Source of the DNA: Desulfosporosinus sp. FKB | GTDB lineage: Bacteria; Bacillota; Desulfitobacteriia; Desulfitobacteriales; Desulfitobacteriaceae | Assembly: GCF_002196705.1 (NCBI RefSeq) | Contig: NZ_NADJ01000007.1 | Location: 1-55,510, forward strand | Reading direction: 5' to 3' | Length of the DNA: 55,510 nt | Shown here: positions 5 through 47,117 of the stretch, in pieces | Position numbering within the stretch: the first letter of the stretch is position 1 | Layout: each line of letters begins with the position of its first letter | The notes under the pieces: model-generated | Database searches by the model: none | Seen by the model: the letters and a program-made list of their open reading frames with translations, nothing else | Told to the model about the DNA's origin: nothing | Translations under genes and position numbers: made by a program

Positions 5-119
5 TCTGGTGATCATGCCGGAGGGGTTCCACCCGTTCCCATATCGAACACGGAAGTTAAGACCTCCAGGGCCGAGAATACTTGGGGCATTGCCCCTGGG
101 AAAGTAGGTCATCGCCAGG
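5..119 (+). rRNA. rrf: 5S ribosomal RNA
   Basis: This is the 5S rRNA of the large ribosomal subunit. The 5' end (CTGGTGA) pairs with the 3' end (TCGCCAG) to form helix I. The diagnostic internal segments are present: the loop with CCGTTCCCATATCGAAC, then GGAAGTTAAG, and the late GGGAAAGTAGG segment. Its length of about 115 nt is normal. It is probably the last gene of an rRNA operon whose 16S and 23S lie outside the window, because a terminator follows at once and no further RNA gene is seen. Confidence 0.96.
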
Positions 120-130
120 TAAAACAAACG

Positions 131-22945: not shown

Positions 22946-23152
22946 CTTTCTATGGTCCTTGAATTAATATATTATAGATCTAACTGCGGACAAACAAAAT
23001 ACAAAGCGATAAGATTCTTCTCAATCTATGTGACGCTGATATTGACCATTTACCTATTGATATTTTCTCATATATATGATTCACTCTTATTATAGAAAGA
23101 AGATAACTTTTTTAAAAGAAAAATTTTTAACAGATTTATTGTATTCAATCGT

Positions 23153-23295
23153 AAATCTTCCACTTCTACAAGTTGGAGTGGTTCCATACCTCGCTTCAGT
23201 GGGGGTAGAGTCTATCCTTTAGCGCGATCGCATTTTATGGGCTAGGCGCTTTCGTCTCCGAAGCCCCGATGTTCAGCTTTAGCTGAACGAGTTTA
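23153..23295 (+). repeat. Non-autonomous IS200/IS605-like repeat with conserved core (copy A)
   Basis: A 143-bp element without an ORF. It opens with a hairpin (CTTCCACTT...AAGTTGGAG), ends with a perfect hairpin GTTCAGCTTTAGCTGAAC (23271-23288) and a terminal GAGTTTACT, and carries a core with GGGGGTAGAGTCTATCCTTT and ATGGGCTAGGCGCTTTCG. The core and right end match the inverted copy at 30285-30438. Paired end hairpins with a short tail and no transposase fit a decayed or PATE-like IS200/IS605 derivative. The right-end hairpin with a CTTTAG loop resembles TnpB-associated (OMEGA RNA) ends. Confidence 0.75.
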
Positions 23296-23498
23296 CTTTT
23301 AAAATAAGCGTTTCGATTATTTTTATCATGATAAATATTGATTATCTTCGCATGGGAAATACATAATAACGGAATTGTGTAAAATATCACCTTTTGATGC
23401 CTCAAACTCTTTGCAGTATGGTTTAGAGTAAAGGGAGGAATTGTGGGGAGTCGTAAATGGCAAATAGCACAATTAATAAAAAAAGGAGGGACTAAGGA

Positions 23499-29071: not shown

Positions 29072-29123
29072 AATGTAACCATATGATGTTAAATAGTCAA
29101 GTCTAAATATTTGATTCAATCCC

Positions 29124-29163
29124 ACCGAAGCCCTAATGTTCAGCTTTAGCTGAACGAGCTCAC
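29124..29163 (+). repeat. Right-end fragment of the IS605-like repeat
   Basis: CCGAAGCCC, then the hairpin GTTCAGCTTTAGCTGAAC (29138-29155) and GAGCTCACT, nearly identical to the last 40 bp of copy A (23153-23295). The left end and core are missing. It falls between the PadR operator and the ferredoxin gene. Confidence 0.7.
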
Positions 29164-29242
29164 TGGCTTAATAACAACTGATTATCCAGTTGGTGGGCGA
29201 GTCTTGGAACGCGAAAGTGTTCAGATATGGGAACTAAAATTT

Positions 29243-29711: not shown

Positions 29712-30287
29712 ATGGCACATAAATTTAATCCGGCAAACAAAAGAAAGCTTGATGACCAGTGGCGTCGACAGAATCTCCCTCCAAAACTTACATTAGAAAA
29801 ACTAGGTCTTAATTCTGATGATACTCTTGCTGATATCGGGTGTGGGATAGGATATTTTACTATTCCAGCGGCCAAAGTGATCAAATCAGCACATAAAGTT
29901 TTTGCATTGGACATTTCAGAAGAAATGTTGACTGAGGTAAAAAAAAGAGCAGATGCCGCCGGTATATCAAATATCGTCTCAGTCAAGACCGAAGAATACG
30001 ACTTAAAGCTTCCTGATCAATCTGTAAGTTTTGTACTTTTAGTCAATGTCCTTCACGAAATTGACAACCAAGGAAGATTTCTCGGCGAGGTGTATCGCAT
30101 ATTAAAAACTGATGGTAAAATAGCCTTAATTGATTGGGAGAAGAAAACAACGGAAATGGGCCCTCCCTTAGATCATCGGATAAGCAGTCAAGATGCTAAA
30201 GGTTTGCTGCAACCAGCAAGCTTTGAGCTCTTAAAAGAAATGTCATTCGCTGAAACATTTTATGGTTTAGTAGCTATCAAGAAGTGA
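29712..30287 (+). CDS. Class I SAM-dependent methyltransferase
   Basis: A 191-residue methyltransferase of the UbiE/Methyltransf_11 type. It has motif I LADIGCGIGYFTIPAA (about 39-54), the acidic residue in FALDISEEML, motif IV LLVNVLHEI and post-motif YRILKTDGKIALIDW. The substrate is unknown. ATG 29712 has AAGGAGAAAAAACC upstream. Its TGA stop lies within the terminal bases of an inverted IS605-like repeat (30285-30438), so the element inserted at the very end of the gene and may have replaced the original last codons. Confidence 0.9.
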   Translation: MAHKFNPANKRKLDDQWRRQNLPPKLTLEKLGLNSDDTLADIGCGIGYFTIPAAKVIKSAHKVFALDISEEMLTEVKKRADAAGISNIVSVKTEEYDLKLPDQSVSFVLLVNVLHEIDNQGRFLGEVYRILKTDGKIALIDWEKKTTEMGPPLDHRISSQDAKGLLQPASFELLKEMSFAETFYGLVAIKK

Positions 30288-30438
30288 ACTCATTCAGCAA
30301 ATGCTGAACATCGAGCTTCGGTAACGAGAGTGTCCTGTGGACACTTTCGCCGAAAGCGCCTAGCCCATAACAAATTCTAGCGGGCTGAAGGATGGACTCT
30401 GCCCCCGCCGAAGATGGTACGAGATACCATTACTCCAT
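30285..30438 (-). repeat. Non-autonomous IS605-like repeat, inverted (copy B)
   Basis: Read on the minus strand this matches copy A: a left part TGGAGTAATGGT, then GGGGGCAGAGTCCATCCTTC, ATGGGCTAGGCGCTTTCG (the best conserved run), an inserted hairpin with GTGTCC...GGACAC, CCGAAGCTCGATG, and the right-end hairpin (variant TTCAGCATTTGCTGAA). Conservation of the core in two divergent copies implies a functional sequence or structure. There is no ORF. Confidence 0.75.
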
Positions 30439-30503
30439 TTTAGAATTTGGAGCCTTGTGATTGGACAAAAGTCTTATACCGTAGTGGATAGAGCCGATTT
30501 TTT

Positions 30504-33570: not shown

Positions 33571-34914
33571 ATGAGAATTTTGCATACCTCAGATTGGCAT
33601 CTCGGACGAATGCTTGAAGGACGCAGCAGAATCGAGGAACAAATCAAGTTTATCGATGAACTTTGCCAAATCGTTGAAGACGAGAGAGTTGATCTTGTTC
33701 TGATTGCAGGAGATATTTTTGATACAGTGAACCCTCCGGCAATTGCCGAAGAGCTGTTTTATGATGCCTTAAATCGTTTAACATCAGGGGGAAGGCGAGG
33801 GGTCGTCGCAATTGCCGGTAATCATGACAACCCGGAACGGCTCTGTGCGGCGAGTCCTTTGGCAGGGCGGCAGGGGATAACTTTATATGGCTTTCCTAAA
33901 GATGTTTTGCAGCCGAGTTTTTCTGGGCATTCTAATAATAACAAAGTAGTACGAAGGGCAGCAGGCCAAGGATGGGTTGAGTTACATCTGCCTGAGTGCT
34001 CGGACCCCGTAGTATTAGCCCTTCTTCCCTATCCCTCAGAATCACGGCTCAATGAAGTTTTAAATTCCAGCCTTGACGAGGAAACTCTGAGGCAGGATTA
34101 TTCAAAACGTGTCCAAGAATTATTAGCTTTGTTCAGTAAACCTTTTCGACCTGATACTGTGAACTTGGCTATGAGTCATCTCTTTGTACGCGGAGGGATG
34201 CAATCAGAATCTGAGCGTCCCATTCAACTTGGCAGTGCACCGACCGTTGAAGCAGAGGCAATGCCTGGATGTGCTCAATATGTGGCCTTAGGTCATTTAC
34301 ACCGGGCTCAAGTTGTCAAAGGGTCACCGGTTCCGACTCGATATTCCGGGTCACCCCTGGCTTACAGTTTTTCCGAAACCGGGTATGCCAAATCTGTTAT
34401 TTTAATTGAAGGGTTTCCGGGGCAGCCGGTGGCAACTCGGGAGATTTTCCTTAGTTCGGGTTACCCCCTGGTAAAATGGAAAGCTAAAGAAGGTTTAGCT
34501 CAAGTACAGCAGTGGATTGATGAAGGGAAAGATGAGCAAGCATGGATCGATTTAGAGGTCCATGTAACGAATGTCCTCAATTCTCAGGATATTCACGGCT
34601 TGCGCCGTCAGAGAGAACGTCTTATTAATATTCGGCCGGTCTTTCCGGAAATGGAGCAGATAACCTTGGAGGCTCGTTCCAAGTTGCCTCTTGATGAACT
34701 TTTTCGCAGGTTCTATCAGGAAAAAACAGGTGGGGCTGAGCCGGATCAAGAGTTAGTCTCTATGTTTTTAACATTGATTGATGCTGATAAGAACGAAGAT
34801 AAAGGGAGCTGTTCCAAAGATCAGAACATCGAGGAACGGGTGGGCTACGAAATTTCTTTACGAGGCAGTACAGTGAAAGCGATGACCGACAGGGAGGGGG
34901 CAGAGACTGCATGA
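33571..34914 (+). CDS. sbcD: Exonuclease subunit SbcD (Mre11 family)
   Basis: A 447-residue Mre11-type metallophosphatase, the nuclease of the SbcCD complex that cuts hairpins and processes DNA ends. It has metal-binding motifs TSDWHLGR (residues 6-13), AGDIFDT, AGNHDNPERL, and later ALGHLHRAQ. The C-terminal capping region contacts SbcC. Start ATG 33571 has AAAGGGGTGG upstream. It overlaps sbcC by 4 bp. Confidence 0.95.
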   Translation: MRILHTSDWHLGRMLEGRSRIEEQIKFIDELCQIVEDERVDLVLIAGDIFDTVNPPAIAEELFYDALNRLTSGGRRGVVAIAGNHDNPERLCAASPLAGRQGITLYGFPKDVLQPSFSGHSNNNKVVRRAAGQGWVELHLPECSDPVVLALLPYPSESRLNEVLNSSLDEETLRQDYSKRVQELLALFSKPFRPDTVNLAMSHLFVRGGMQSESERPIQLGSAPTVEAEAMPGCAQYVALGHLHRAQVVKGSPVPTRYSGSPLAYSFSETGYAKSVILIEGFPGQPVATREIFLSSGYPLVKWKAKEGLAQVQQWIDEGKDEQAWIDLEVHVTNVLNSQDIHGLRRQRERLINIRPVFPEMEQITLEARSKLPLDELFRRFYQEKTGGAEPDQELVSMFLTLIDADKNEDKGSCSKDQNIEERVGYEISLRGSTVKAMTDREGAETA

Positions 34915-37900
34915 AACCGATCTGTTTAAGGATTGCCGGTTTAAATAGTTTTCGTGAGGTTCAGGAGATCAATTTTACCAAACTTTGTGAGACGGGAGTA
35001 TTCGGGATTTTTGGGTCGACCGGGAGTGGAAAATCTACAATTCTCGATGCTATGACCCTAGCCCTATATGGTACTGTGGAAAGAGCCGCCAATAATACCC
35101 AAGGGATACTTAATCAAGGGGAAGATAAACTCACGGTAGAATATACCTTTTCTTTAGCAGCAGGAAATCGAAGGATCACATACCGGGCAGAACGCGCTTA
35201 TCGGCGTTCAGGAGATCGTACTGTTAAAGCCTCAACATGTCGGTTCGTAGAAATTCAAGGGGATACGGAATTAGTTCTGGCCTCTAAAGCCGATGAGATG
35301 ACTAAAAAAGTTGAAGAAGTGTTAGGTCTAACGGTTGAAGATTTTACCCGGGCAGTCGTGTTGCCTCAAGGCAAATTTGCTGAATTTTTAACGATAAAAC
35401 CGAAAGACCGACGTTTAATGTTGGAACGATTGTTTTCCCTTGAAGCCTATGGACGAAATCTTACGGCCCGTCTTTCGGAACAAGCTGATAGTACCCGCTT
35501 CCATCTTAATGGTGTTGAGCAGCGGCTTCAAGGCTTGGGGGATGCCTCAGCAGAACAGGTTGCTATGGCTGAAAAGGAGTTTGAAACCGCGAGAATTGCC
35601 TCGGAGCAATCCCTTGGCTGCTTAGAGCGTATCAAGCAAGAGTTTGAACAGGCAAAAGAACTGTGGGGGCTGCAAGAACAATTACGTCAAGTTCAAGAAC
35701 GGGAATCTCGTCGTTCGGCTGTTAAACCTGAAATGGACAAGCTTTCGGAAAAGCTCGCCTTGGCAGAACGGGCGGAGACATTACGGCCCATTTTAGAAGA
35801 TTTGGGCCTGGCAGAAAAAAGGCTGAAAGAAGCCCAGGGCGATGAAGAAAAAGCAAGAAAAAGACTTGCAGAAGCAAGATTGAAAAAAGAACAGGCAGAG
35901 CAGCTTTGGCTGGAGATCAATCATCAGCGATTGGAGAAGGAGCCGTTCTTTCTTCGCCAATTAGAACAACTAGAACAGGCGAAACGTCTGGAAGCAGAGA
36001 TTCATAATCGCAGTCTGAAGTTATCTCAGACAAGGCAGCAGTATAGCGATCTTGATCGAAAGCGTAAAGGATTGGAACAAGGATTTCAAGAGGCTGTGGA
36101 AAAGAAAAGAGCCCTTGAAAAGCGGTTACAAGAGGGAAGGAGCAGGCTGAGTCAAATAACGGTTGACCCTGCACAGCGGGCAAAAGTCAATGCTTCAGTC
36201 CAAGCCTTAGAAGCTTATGAAATTGTCTCTAAACAAGTGAGCGATTTGCAAAGTGACTTTGCCGAAAATACGACGGAAATAAAGTCTGTAAAAACCCAGG
36301 AAGCTAATTTGGCTCTGGAAGTTAAAACGGCTCGGGAAGTCGTTACAGGACTTAAAGAAACTCTGACGATGAAAGCCGAACACCCTCCCATTCGAGAAGA
36401 GATGCTAAGCAGGCAAGCTCAAGACCTGGAACGCAGCCGCCATGGAATTATAAATGTCGGACGGGCTGAAGTGGAGAGACAAGAAGCCGAAGGACGTTTA
36501 CAAGCGATCTCTTTGGAGTGCCAAAGAGCCGGTGATGATTTAAATGGTTATGAACAGGAACAAAAACTGTTAGACGAAGAAATTAGCCGCCTGAAAGAAT
36601 CTGTGGAGGCTAAAAAGACCTATGTTAAAGAACTGGAGCAGAACTATCGGGCTAAAATACTTGCTGAGTTCTTAGCGGAAGGAGAGCCTTGCCCTGTTTG
36701 CGGTTCCCTTGATCATCCTTCCCCAGCTCTTAAAGTTCAGGATGTGATTATGGAAGAGGCCAATAAGGATCTTGAGGAAATCGGTAAACAATTGCATGCC
36801 CTCGAGAAACTGGAGGCCGAGAAGGCGACAAGACTTGCAGTAGCACGAGCTCAGTTGACTAGCAAACAAGATTTCGAAAAAAATCAGTCCCAGCTTTTAG
36901 CAGATAAATTAACTGAGGTGAAAAATTATCGCGAGGAGCTATCATTAGCTGATAAAAACCTGACTGTAGAAGAATTAAACCGATTGTTACAGAAACAGGA
37001 AGAGAATTTAGAGGTTCAGCGACAGTGTTTGAAAGATTGGAATCGAGAACAAGAGCAGCTTACGCATCAGTTAGAGAGTGCTCAGCATAATCTGGACAGT
37101 GTTGAAGAAGCATGGCATAAGCTTCAAGCTAGGATCGCTGCGGTTACGGGTATGGGTTCAGAGATTCAAAATAGGCTCAGTTATTTTTTACAAGAACAGA
37201 CTAAGCGGCAAAAGGACTTAGACCTTTTGCGAGAAAATATCCCCGCTTCGGAGATCCGATTATTGCAGGACCAATATTCTCGTTGGGATCAAGTCACCAA
37301 AAATTTAAGCCAAGAGTTAACACAAGTTGAAACAGAACTGGGAAAAATAAATGTGGATCAGGATAAACTTCTCGGTGAAAAGACAGCTTGTGAGCTTGAC
37401 CTGCAGAATCTTAGAACCTTAGGAAGTGAAGCTGTTCGAACCTTGGAAGAACTAAAACTTCAGTGTGATGCTATTACAGGAGGAAAACCGGCACAAGAGC
37501 GGTTAGAGATGGTTAAGGAGGAGTTAACTCAAGTTGTCACTGCTGAAGAACAACTTAAGAAGGACTATGAACAAGGGAAAGAGGCTTGGCTGCAATCAGA
37601 ACAAACTTGTGCAGTAAGCGGGAAGTCATTGGAGCTAGCCCATGAGGCAACAGCGTCAATTCAACTTAAATTAAAGCAGTCTCTTATAACGTCGCAATTT
37701 TTGTCAGTCGAAGCAGTTCAAAGTGCCCTTTGTGAACTCTCAGACAGAAGGAACATGGAACAGAGTGTTTCAGAGTTTCATCAGGAGGGATTGCTTCTTG
37801 AACAAAAGCGAGAAGATCTTGAAAAGCGTCTACAGGGACGAGGTCTTACATCTGAGGAATGGTTAGCTTGGCCGGCAGTGTTAAAAGAGGCAGAGAAAGT

Positions 37901-38525
37901 GCATACGGAAGCTGTTGAAAAGCGCGGTGCCAGTCTGCAGAAACTAAATAAGCTCAAAGAAGAACACGAAGAATGGCTGCGCTTAGAAGGCGAACGCCAA
38001 GCTTTGGCTCATCGTCTCAATTTGCTTAAAATCCTGCAGAATGTTTTCAAAGGAAATGGCTTTATTGAGTTCCTCGCTCAGGAGCAGCTGGCAAATGTCT
38101 CCCGGGATGCTTCAGAACGCTTGAAACAACTGACCAATCAGCGCTACGCTCTGGAAGTTGATACTGAGGGAGGATTTGTAATGAGGGACGATGCCAATGG
38201 GGGAGTACGCCGCCCTGTAAGCAGCCTTTCTGGCGGGGAAACCTTTCTTACCGCCCTTGCCCTGGCCTTAGCCTTATCTACGCAGATTCAACTGCGCGGA
38301 GAATCTCCCCTGGAATTCTTCTTTTTGGACGAAGGCTTTGGAACCCTTGATCCCCATTTGCTGGAAACAGTAATGAATACCCTGGAAAAACTGCGTTTTC
38401 AAAACATAGCTATTGGGATTATCAGCCATGTTCCGGAATTAAGGAATCGACTGGCAAGGCGTTTGCTTGTTTCACCCGCTGAGGCTGGCGGAGCCGGGAG
38501 CAAGGTCAAATTAGAGATAGAGTAA
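34911..38525 (+). CDS. sbcC: Exonuclease subunit SbcC (Rad50 family)
   Basis: A 1204-residue SMC-like ATPase. The N-terminal Walker A is GSTGSGKSTILDAM (about 34-47). Two long coiled coils flank the zinc hook CPVCGS (about residue 591). The C-terminal lobe has the signature SSLSGGETFLTALALAL (about 1103) and Walker B EFFFLDEGFGTLD (about 1133). This is the classic Rad50/SbcC order and length. It holds DNA ends and drives the SbcD nuclease. Translationally coupled to sbcD. Confidence 0.96.
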   Translation: MKPICLRIAGLNSFREVQEINFTKLCETGVFGIFGSTGSGKSTILDAMTLALYGTVERAANNTQGILNQGEDKLTVEYTFSLAAGNRRITYRAERAYRRSGDRTVKASTCRFVEIQGDTELVLASKADEMTKKVEEVLGLTVEDFTRAVVLPQGKFAEFLTIKPKDRRLMLERLFSLEAYGRNLTARLSEQADSTRFHLNGVEQRLQGLGDASAEQVAMAEKEFETARIASEQSLGCLERIKQEFEQAKELWGLQEQLRQVQERESRRSAVKPEMDKLSEKLALAERAETLRPILEDLGLAEKRLKEAQGDEEKARKRLAEARLKKEQAEQLWLEINHQRLEKEPFFLRQLEQLEQAKRLEAEIHNRSLKLSQTRQQYSDLDRKRKGLEQGFQEAVEKKRALEKRLQEGRSRLSQITVDPAQRAKVNASVQALEAYEIVSKQVSDLQSDFAENTTEIKSVKTQEANLALEVKTAREVVTGLKETLTMKAEHPPIREEMLSRQAQDLERSRHGIINVGRAEVERQEAEGRLQAISLECQRAGDDLNGYEQEQKLLDEEISRLKESVEAKKTYVKELEQNYRAKILAEFLAEGEPCPVCGSLDHPSPALKVQDVIMEEANKDLEEIGKQLHALEKLEAEKATRLAVARAQLTSKQDFEKNQSQLLADKLTEVKNYREELSLADKNLTVEELNRLLQKQEENLEVQRQCLKDWNREQEQLTHQLESAQHNLDSVEEAWHKLQARIAAVTGMGSEIQNRLSYFLQEQTKRQKDLDLLRENIPASEIRLLQDQYSRWDQVTKNLSQELTQVETELGKINVDQDKLLGEKTACELDLQNLRTLGSEAVRTLEELKLQCDAITGGKPAQERLEMVKEELTQVVTAEEQLKKDYEQGKEAWLQSEQTCAVSGKSLELAHEATASIQLKLKQSLITSQFLSVEAVQSALCELSDRRNMEQSVSEFHQEGLLLEQKREDLEKRLQGRGLTSEEWLAWPAVLKEAEKVHTEAVEKRGASLQKLNKLKEEHEEWLRLEGERQALAHRLNLLKILQNVFKGNGFIEFLAQEQLANVSRDASERLKQLTNQRYALEVDTEGGFVMRDDANGGVRRPVSSLSGGETFLTALALALALSTQIQLRGESPLEFFFLDEGFGTLDPHLLETVMNTLEKLRFQNIAIGIISHVPELRNRLARRLLVSPAEAGGAGSKVKLEIE

Positions 38526-38639: not shown

Positions 38640-38697
38640 TCAATAATCGAAGTTGTTTCGAGATGTAGTCATAATTACAAATCTTTATCCAATCATA

Positions 38698-38746
38698 AGA
38701 CTTCCACTTTTATAAGTGGGAGTGGTACCCCGTACACAAGTTCACT
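38698..38746 (+). repeat. Degenerate IS605-like repeat fragment
   Basis: The left-end hairpin CTTCCACTT...AAGTGGGAG (38701-38722) is followed by GTGGTACCCCGTACACAAGT and TTCACT. The outer ends match copy A, but the core and right hairpin are lost. It lies in the leader between the iclR promoter and its start. Confidence 0.6.
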
Positions 38747-47002: not shown

Positions 47003-47036
47003 AAGCGGGATCTGCTCAAAAGCGGGTCCCGCTTTT
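47003..47036 (+). terminator. Terminator after malic enzyme
   Basis: Stem AAGCGGGATC / GGTCCCGCTT with one wobble, ending TTTTG. The T tract is short, so the confidence is moderate. Confidence 0.6.
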
Positions 47037-47053
47037 GAAGTTTAACCAATTGT

Positions 47054-47117
47054 AAGACACCAACTTCTACAAGTGGGTGTGGTCCCGATGTTCAGGCTTT
47101 AGCTGAACAAGTTCACT
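47054..47117 (+). repeat. Internally deleted IS605-like repeat
   Basis: The left-end hairpin (CACCAACTTCTACAAGTGGGTG) runs almost directly into the right-end segment CCCGATG and hairpin GTTCAGGCTTTAGCTGAAC, ending TTCACT. The core of copy A is absent. This is an internal-deletion derivative that keeps both ends. Confidence 0.7.

Follow-up and report, generated by a model that had tools for sequence, protein, structure and literature searches.

Is a short repeat that has the ends of an IS200/IS605-type transposon and no transposase gene a stand-alone guide-like RNA, or is it a DNA element moved by an enzyme encoded elsewhere? The question arises in a window of 55,510 nucleotides (the whole stretch of DNA that was analysed, from Desulfosporosinus sp. 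FKB), in which an earlier note had described copy A at 23153-23295 and an inverted copy B at 30285-30438, and had suggested an OMEGA- or HEARO-type RNA in their core. Both copies are real and lie at these places. Setting their limits from copies that have nothing but the element in common refined A to 23145-23297 (forward strand) and B to 30283-30464 (reverse strand). For B, the place was right and the left end was not, the earlier limit being 26 bases short.

A and B follow one plan, in which AAGAC or a variant stands before the left hairpin, the core comes next, and the right hairpin is followed by a tail, GAGTTCACT or a variant of it. On the forward strand, A starts behind the target pentamer TGTAT (23140-23144; consensus TTNAT) and comprises the left-end hairpin CTTCCACTT/AAGTTGGAG (23157-23178), the 5' strand of P1 (CTTCAGTG, 23194-23201; consensus CTTCGGTG), the conserved segment GGGGTAGAGTC (23202-23212), which holds the loop of the middle hairpin in compact forms, hairpin C (AGCGC/GCGCT, 23221-23250), which covaries between species in an alignment without A itself, the 3' strand of P1 (CTCCGAAG, 23256-23263; consensus CACCGAAG), the right-end hairpin GTTCAGC TTTA GCTGAAC (23271-23288) and the tail GAGTTTACT (23289-23297). 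B lies on the reverse strand behind the pentamer TTTGT (30465-30469) and is a long form with hairpin D (30324-30351), while A is a long form without it; the two differ mainly by an internal gap of 26 nt in A, through which this hairpin is lost. Core and right hairpin are kept in both, as had been noted. The model R1, which covers the core and right end (39 of the 67 collected core references, 35 pairs), matched A with 95.6 bits and B with 129.8 bits, B having been used in building R1 and A not.

Three deletion derivatives on the forward strand of the window, like the genome-wide copy number given below, go beyond what the earlier note saw. At 29116-29164, behind TTGAT (29111-29115), a left-end stub is joined to the right end; at 38689-38746, behind TTTAT (38684-38688), the left-end hairpin is joined to the tail GTTCACT (tail assigned by eye); and at 47046-47117, behind TTTAA (47041-47045), a terminal-only derivative of 72 bp consists of the left and right hairpins. 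R1 matched the first and the third, not the second. Directly before the terminal-only derivative, at 47020-47045, lies an apparent terminator hairpin, AAAGCGGGTCCCGCTTT (by eye).

We then analysed the ends in 102 copies collected by pattern and pooled from several genomes, 9 of which were dropped as their left start could not be placed. Among the remaining 93, the pentamer before the left end was TTTAT in 47, TTCAT in 14, TTGAT in 9 and another sequence in 23, so that 70 fit the consensus TTNAT; the tail GTTCACT was found in 80. Outside the pentamer there was no strong preference, the flanks being merely A+T-rich. Since the right end was sought only up to 380 bases from the left end, a full-length parent could not be seen in this analysis. 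Hairpins stand at both ends. Each has conserved bases on its 5' side, AAGAC or a variant at the foot of the left hairpin and CGATG at the right one, whose positions suggest that they are the guide sequences of the ends. The two ends differ, and there are no terminal inverted repeats (by eye). An empty site was found for B: in genome G008 the flanks are continuous (query 4-298 in one piece, 78% identical), and the site is filled in G014 and here. No target duplication is visible there, the exact junction bases having diverged. A second empty-site comparison (L131 versus L013) was unusable, the region being rearranged. That is, the ends and the mode of insertion are of the IS200/IS605 type.

Insertions in the source genome are intergenic or nearly so. 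None of 30 copies lies inside an ORF of at least 120 amino acids, and an ORF end overlaps the element in 6 of the 30, five times by 2-9 bases and once by 32. Read in reverse, the right end (AAG TGA ACT C) provides the stop codon of the gene beside it, or borders on that codon, at B (30283-30287), where the methyltransferase ORF 29712-30287 takes its stop codon from the element, and at L167, where the overlap was also seen by eye. The right hairpin of A together with its T-rich flank scores as terminator-like (1 site versus 0.3 expected).

Copies are numerous. BLAST of A against its own genome, in which 40 of 243 candidates were scored, returned 45 pieces, namely A, 39 other places (E of at most 1.6e-18) and 5 short second pieces; B was not among the matches listed. 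With 39 other places at such E-values, the match is far beyond chance. Of 1627 candidates for R1, 150 were scored, and 149 of these matched at E up to 1e-3; as one place was matched on both strands, they correspond to at least 148 places. The copies occur in at least three forms: one of about 155-183 bp, a subfamily in which P1 and hairpin D are different, and one that is compact.

The DNA search, which the earlier note had proposed along with the own-genome comparison, matched 36 of 60 relatives and 8 of 19 genera. Within the class, R1 matched 44 of 82 genomes (41 of 45 in family f1, 3 of 3 in f2, 0 of 25 in f3 and 0 of 9 in f4), and in a sample of the phylum 16 of 398 genomes including the source, ten of them outside the class and in nine families. 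From the source genus, f1 would be Desulfitobacteriaceae and the phylum Bacillota. Strict filters were applied in the class and phylum searches, so that absence is weaker evidence than presence; G032, with weak DNA matches, gave no R1 match under the strict filter. Long forms were seen in f1 only, and the f2 copies seen were compact. Matches listed from outside the class are 62-67 bases long and of the compact form, in which a hairpin with the loop TAGAGT precedes the right hairpin; this form thus occurs in nine further families of the phylum. Most of the places inspected have the left hairpin (by eye), and several are shortened or altered there. In G127 (L273, L274, L276 and L277), the left hairpin of several compact elements is split by a common insert (AAGGAAAGGGACACACCTGTGAG...), perhaps another repeat.

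A core pattern run against a named genome collection gave two exact matches, both in Desulfosporosinus acididurans. Plasmid and phage collections contained no match to the long or the compact consensus, and four patterns found nothing in viral contigs. One further pattern detected the compact element in five viral contigs (L305-L309), beside a recombinase-like ORF and, in four of the five, also near an ArsR-like ORF (translated ORFs were read, without a family search); a motif scan found no tnpA/tnpB motif near the element in these contigs. As it has the same place in all five and the same flank in G303 (L284), the compact element seems to travel with the recombinase/ArsR-like region.

We next asked whether the core has a conserved structure. 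In the alignment of long forms (A1, with P1 as CTTCGGTG/CACCGAAG, hairpins C and D and the right hairpin), 93.0% of the cells were paired versus 87.3% in shuffled alignments, both-sided changes occurred in 81 cells versus 27.1, and the covariation score was 0.203 versus 0.102, with structures slid along the alignment reaching at most 0.068. Two measures were not beyond shuffles: 9 pairs with both-sided changes (reached by 117 of 500) and 34 pair types (reached by 130 of 500). P1 showed no both-sided change within A1; a second subfamily of the source genome has CTTCAG/CTGAAG there. The inner part of hairpin C is weakly supported (65% paired), and its loop is more variable than the conserved segment GGGGTAGAGTC. 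As the R1 references are all long forms, statistics for the compact form were taken from A2 and R2, which comprise 29 compact sequences selected from R1 hits in the source genome, f2 and nine other families. Here 95.1% of the cells were paired versus 81.0% in shuffles, the score was 0.412 versus 0.172 (slid structures at most 0.129), and 11 pairs had both-sided changes (reached by 8 of 500 shuffles); pair types were not beyond shuffles. The fifth base of the TAGAGT loop is variable (G in 21, A in 6 and C in 2 of the 29). At least 26 of the 29 sequences agree at each of the other five loop positions, in the linker CGATG and in the tail GAGTTCACT. That is, the core folds with covariation, in the long as well as in the compact form. 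The ends, the covariation and the 210 loci around copies bear out the original proposal of an IS605-like repeat that has no transposase and whose structured core and right end are conserved.

Folded as single sequences and compared with shuffles, A reached a z of -2.58 as RNA and B a z of -3.75 as DNA. Structure prediction cannot separate RNA from single-stranded DNA. The initial fold alignment (RNAalifold) excluded six truncated copies. Its pairing AGTCCAT/ATGGGCT was rejected, as it is not kept in other subfamilies (by eye), and a pairing GGGG/CYCC across P1 was set aside because loop lengths of zero make the pseudoknot implausible. In G030, G013 and G028 (L074-L077, L082, L083 and L310) we observed extra hairpin modules, which resemble an inverted duplication of the core around GGAGGTAGACTCC.

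Covariation can also arise without selection, as template switching within inverted repeats keeps hairpins intact, and the internal covariation may be such a mutational by-product. We consider this unlikely, though a serious candidate. Compact stems are perfect or near-perfect (CTTCGGTGGGGG/CCCCCACCGAAG), but the five kept TAGAGT loop bases, CGATG and the tail have no pairing partner through which they could be maintained. G030 has two copies of the core in opposite orientation (by eye), R1 matches both strands of L310, and in the long form G-U and A-C imperfections are about equally frequent once the usual G-U column is left out; against this stands the loop of hairpin C, which varies more than the conserved segment. 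Such an origin of the covariation can be reconciled with mobilisation of the element in trans, the explanation that we favour below.

To see whether copies are under selection in place, we compared four insertions common with G014, in which the elements had 535 of 613 identical columns and the flanks 936 of 1034. Pair by pair, the elements (165/186, 132/160, 121/131 and 117/136) and flanks (166/182, 222/265, 265/293 and 283/294) were about equally diverged in three cases, and the element was more diverged in one; the flanks contain some coding sequence, which may slow their divergence. Internal deletions also distinguish three of the four pairs. Since elements diverge at least about as fast as flanks, resident copies look like decaying transposon copies. 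Over all main helices of A1, G-U pairs outnumber A-C mismatches (54 versus 21), an excess that disappears without one column that is usually G-U (22 versus 21). In A2 the ratio is 25 versus 11 (p 0.03), and 15 versus 11 (p 0.56) without one variable pair. With decay at about the rate of the flanks and a G-U excess that is lost with one column, these data do not clearly indicate that hosts maintain resident copies as RNA genes. Conservation, if it acts, must act on lineages that are still moving, or come from template switching inside hairpins.

These results bear directly on the OMEGA-type guide RNA that the earlier note had considered. In that case, core and right end would be transcribed and bound in trans by a TnpB encoded elsewhere, which we judge improbable; equally improbable in our view is the associated role, in which the flank behind the right end would be the guide and TTTAT the TAM, protecting the element from loss after excision. 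The G-U excess over all columns would fit a transcribed RNA, but it is not robust, and copies decay at about the rate of their flanks. Covarying structure does lie directly upstream of the right end, with TTNAT at the TAM position, in analogy to ISDra2, whose TnpB uses a right-end RNA and the TAM TTGAT as described (PMC8612924). However, no TnpA/TnpB locus examined has the core or the right end as its own. In scans of TnpA/TnpB loci with R1 and R2 (44, 42 and 85 sources, partly identical), the sole convincing match was L095/L219, a single place in G021 with a copy immediately upstream of an IS; scores elsewhere were 10.9-11.3 bits, with E-values near 1. The TnpB-only elements L035, L037 and L038 of the source genome share the target TTTAT, the sequence AAGACTCCCA with a similar left hairpin and the tail GTTCAC (ends by eye), so that a related tnpB element does exist as far as target and left end are concerned, but without the core. 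In addition, no PF07282 match was found in G008 or G024, which are rich in copies (40 and at least 33 R1 matches, respectively), and inside A there is no promoter-like site, one weak site beginning 80 bases upstream.

In a related proposal, the TAGAGT hairpin and the right end would form a minimal guide-like RNA, standing alone throughout the phylum and used by a nuclease or another protein in trans, with the f1 insert as an added domain. To this we likewise give little credence. A guide role may apply to ancestors or in unsampled hosts.

A HEARO or IscB omega RNA is the least credible of the alternatives, with nothing in its favour beyond a resemblance of the core. At the gathering score, neither the window nor 20 representative loci gave an RF02033 match, and Rfam had no hit to the element there at all. 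At a relaxed score around A and B, only chance-level hits appeared, none of them RF02033. The layout differs as well, since HEARO systems as described (PMC9755519) have their RNA within the 5' UTR of the nuclease gene and the spacer at the 5' end of that RNA. A search for an RRXRR/IscB gene (PF14239) found no match in the source genome; the control genomes gave none either, so that this search lacked a positive control.

We also looked for the enzyme that could move the element. In a tblastn search, 17 TnpA, TnpB and Y1 proteins of the class found no match (E 1e-3) in the 210 loci around copies, which amount to 520 kb and partly cover the same places. Outside these, at L310 in G030, a tnpB remnant lies 51 bases beyond the left end of the element and runs away from it. 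Over 48 residues it shares 94% identity with the TnpB of L218, and we read the locus as a tnpB gene hit by an insertion of the element. At L311, a compact copy of the source genome and a tnpB remnant are 1.5 kb apart. IS200-type TnpA genes are present in many, not all, hosts, but among 30 and 12 further such loci examined none had the ends of the element; 30 of 57 listed TnpA matches and 30 of 52 TnpB matches had been taken up as loci, and at these no autonomous element with such ends was found. A similarity to the left end at L107/L216 was discarded, as it is not repeated in the homologous locus L220. The ends common to the element and to the TnpB-only elements of the source genome suggest that the same kind of TnpA serves both. 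5S rRNA genes open both the window (5-120) and the contig on which the intact TnpB element L037 lies. At 33571-38525 the window has, by Pfam, a large SbcC/SMC-like ORF behind one for a metallophosphoesterase, a pair of the SbcD/SbcC type. Proteins of this type act on DNA hairpins, and here they are encoded in a genome full of hairpin repeats.

The only PF01797 (Y1) matches in the source genome are two proteins of 266 and 185 amino acids (L031 and L032) with the motifs NHVH and YIHxNP, unlike the motifs DH[VI]H and Y[IV]ENQ described for IS200-class TnpA (PMC6006769). Similar genes occur in several other hosts. A REP/REPIN-type element moved by such a RAYT-like Y1 protein would account for a palindrome-rich, intergenic repeat of high copy number, but the 1.5 kb on either side of L031 and L032 contain no copy, and no Y1 match was found in G003 (a single contig with 19 R1 matches) or G022 (21 matches), both of which have copies. 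The label 'RAYT-like' is moreover our own, and the published classification lists the class closest in motifs as lacking REPs; REPs as described there measure 21-65 nt (PMC6006769). As in IS200/IS605, the two ends of the element differ, its target is fixed (TTNAT) and its tail reads TTCAC. We consider a REP/REPIN origin quite improbable, slightly more so than a guide RNA.

Taken together, A and B are likely to be old copies of a non-autonomous, PATE-like element of the IS200/IS605 type that is moved in trans by TnpA. A mobile element is supported by the ends, the target preference, one empty site, the copy number and the covarying hairpins. A HuH/Y1-type TnpA from another element would recognise both end hairpins in single-stranded DNA, cut the element out and integrate it 3' of TTNAT; both the action in trans and the single-stranded route are what we infer. 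Counting against this view, the TnpA and TnpB loci examined yielded no autonomous element with such ends, neither Y1 protein of the source genome belongs to the IS200 class by motif, and G003 and G022 gave no Y1 match in spite of their 19 and 21 R1 matches. Besides the two end hairpins, the element carries a third conserved one, the loop of which reads TAGAGT or differs slightly from it. In Desulfosporosinus and relatives (f1), a larger structured insert (P1 and hairpins C and D) opens this third hairpin, and in some genomes the insert seems to be duplicated in inverted order. A transposase that recognises only the ends does not explain a middle hairpin and loop conserved across nine other families, nor is such a hairpin predicted by the ends-only model of IS200/IS605 transposition. 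In our reading, the third hairpin and the insert matter for, or arise in, DNA mobilisation, rather than having an RNA function that the host maintains locus by locus. The case also calls for caution, since a structured right-end relic of an IS605-type element need not be a guide RNA, and covariation is found here alongside decay of the individual copies that were compared, at about the rate of their flanks.

How does the element relate to known systems? We found no description of the repeat in the papers searched, where of four literal strings of it only one occurs, in an unrelated plant paper, and neither there nor in Rfam did we find the middle hairpin and its spread over many families described. 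With REP/REPIN sequences and their RAYTs it shares intergenic position, palindromes, high copy number and shortness; it differs in being longer, in its two distinct IS200/IS605-type ends and in not lying beside the two Y1 genes of its genome. The TnpB omega RNA or reRNA, as described for ISDra2 (PMC8612924), likewise combines structure beside the right end with a TTNAT-like pentamer on its left boundary, whereas our element has no nuclease gene, no nuclease locus was found with its scaffold, and the compact forms keep only one hairpin besides the ends. Closer to home, the TnpB-only (IS1341-like) elements L035, L037 and L038 have the same target and similar ends, but carry tnpB or its remains and match neither R1 nor R2.

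The PATEs of Haloquadratum walsbyi are described as transposase-free, with near-terminal palindromes, without target duplication and with terminal-only forms (PMC3119063). The element, too, is transposase-free, has near-terminal palindromes of the IS605 type, no terminal inverted repeats, a short 5' target that is not duplicated, terminal-only forms and many copies. In contrast to PATEs, several of which are described as resembling known IS605-type transposons, it came without a matching autonomous relative; it is bacterial and has a third covarying hairpin and, in one family, an elaborate core. PATEs are the closest described kind, and the middle hairpin and the spread over many families appear to be new. 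Extending over at least 11 families of one phylum, the element is a bacterial counterpart of the archaeal PATEs.
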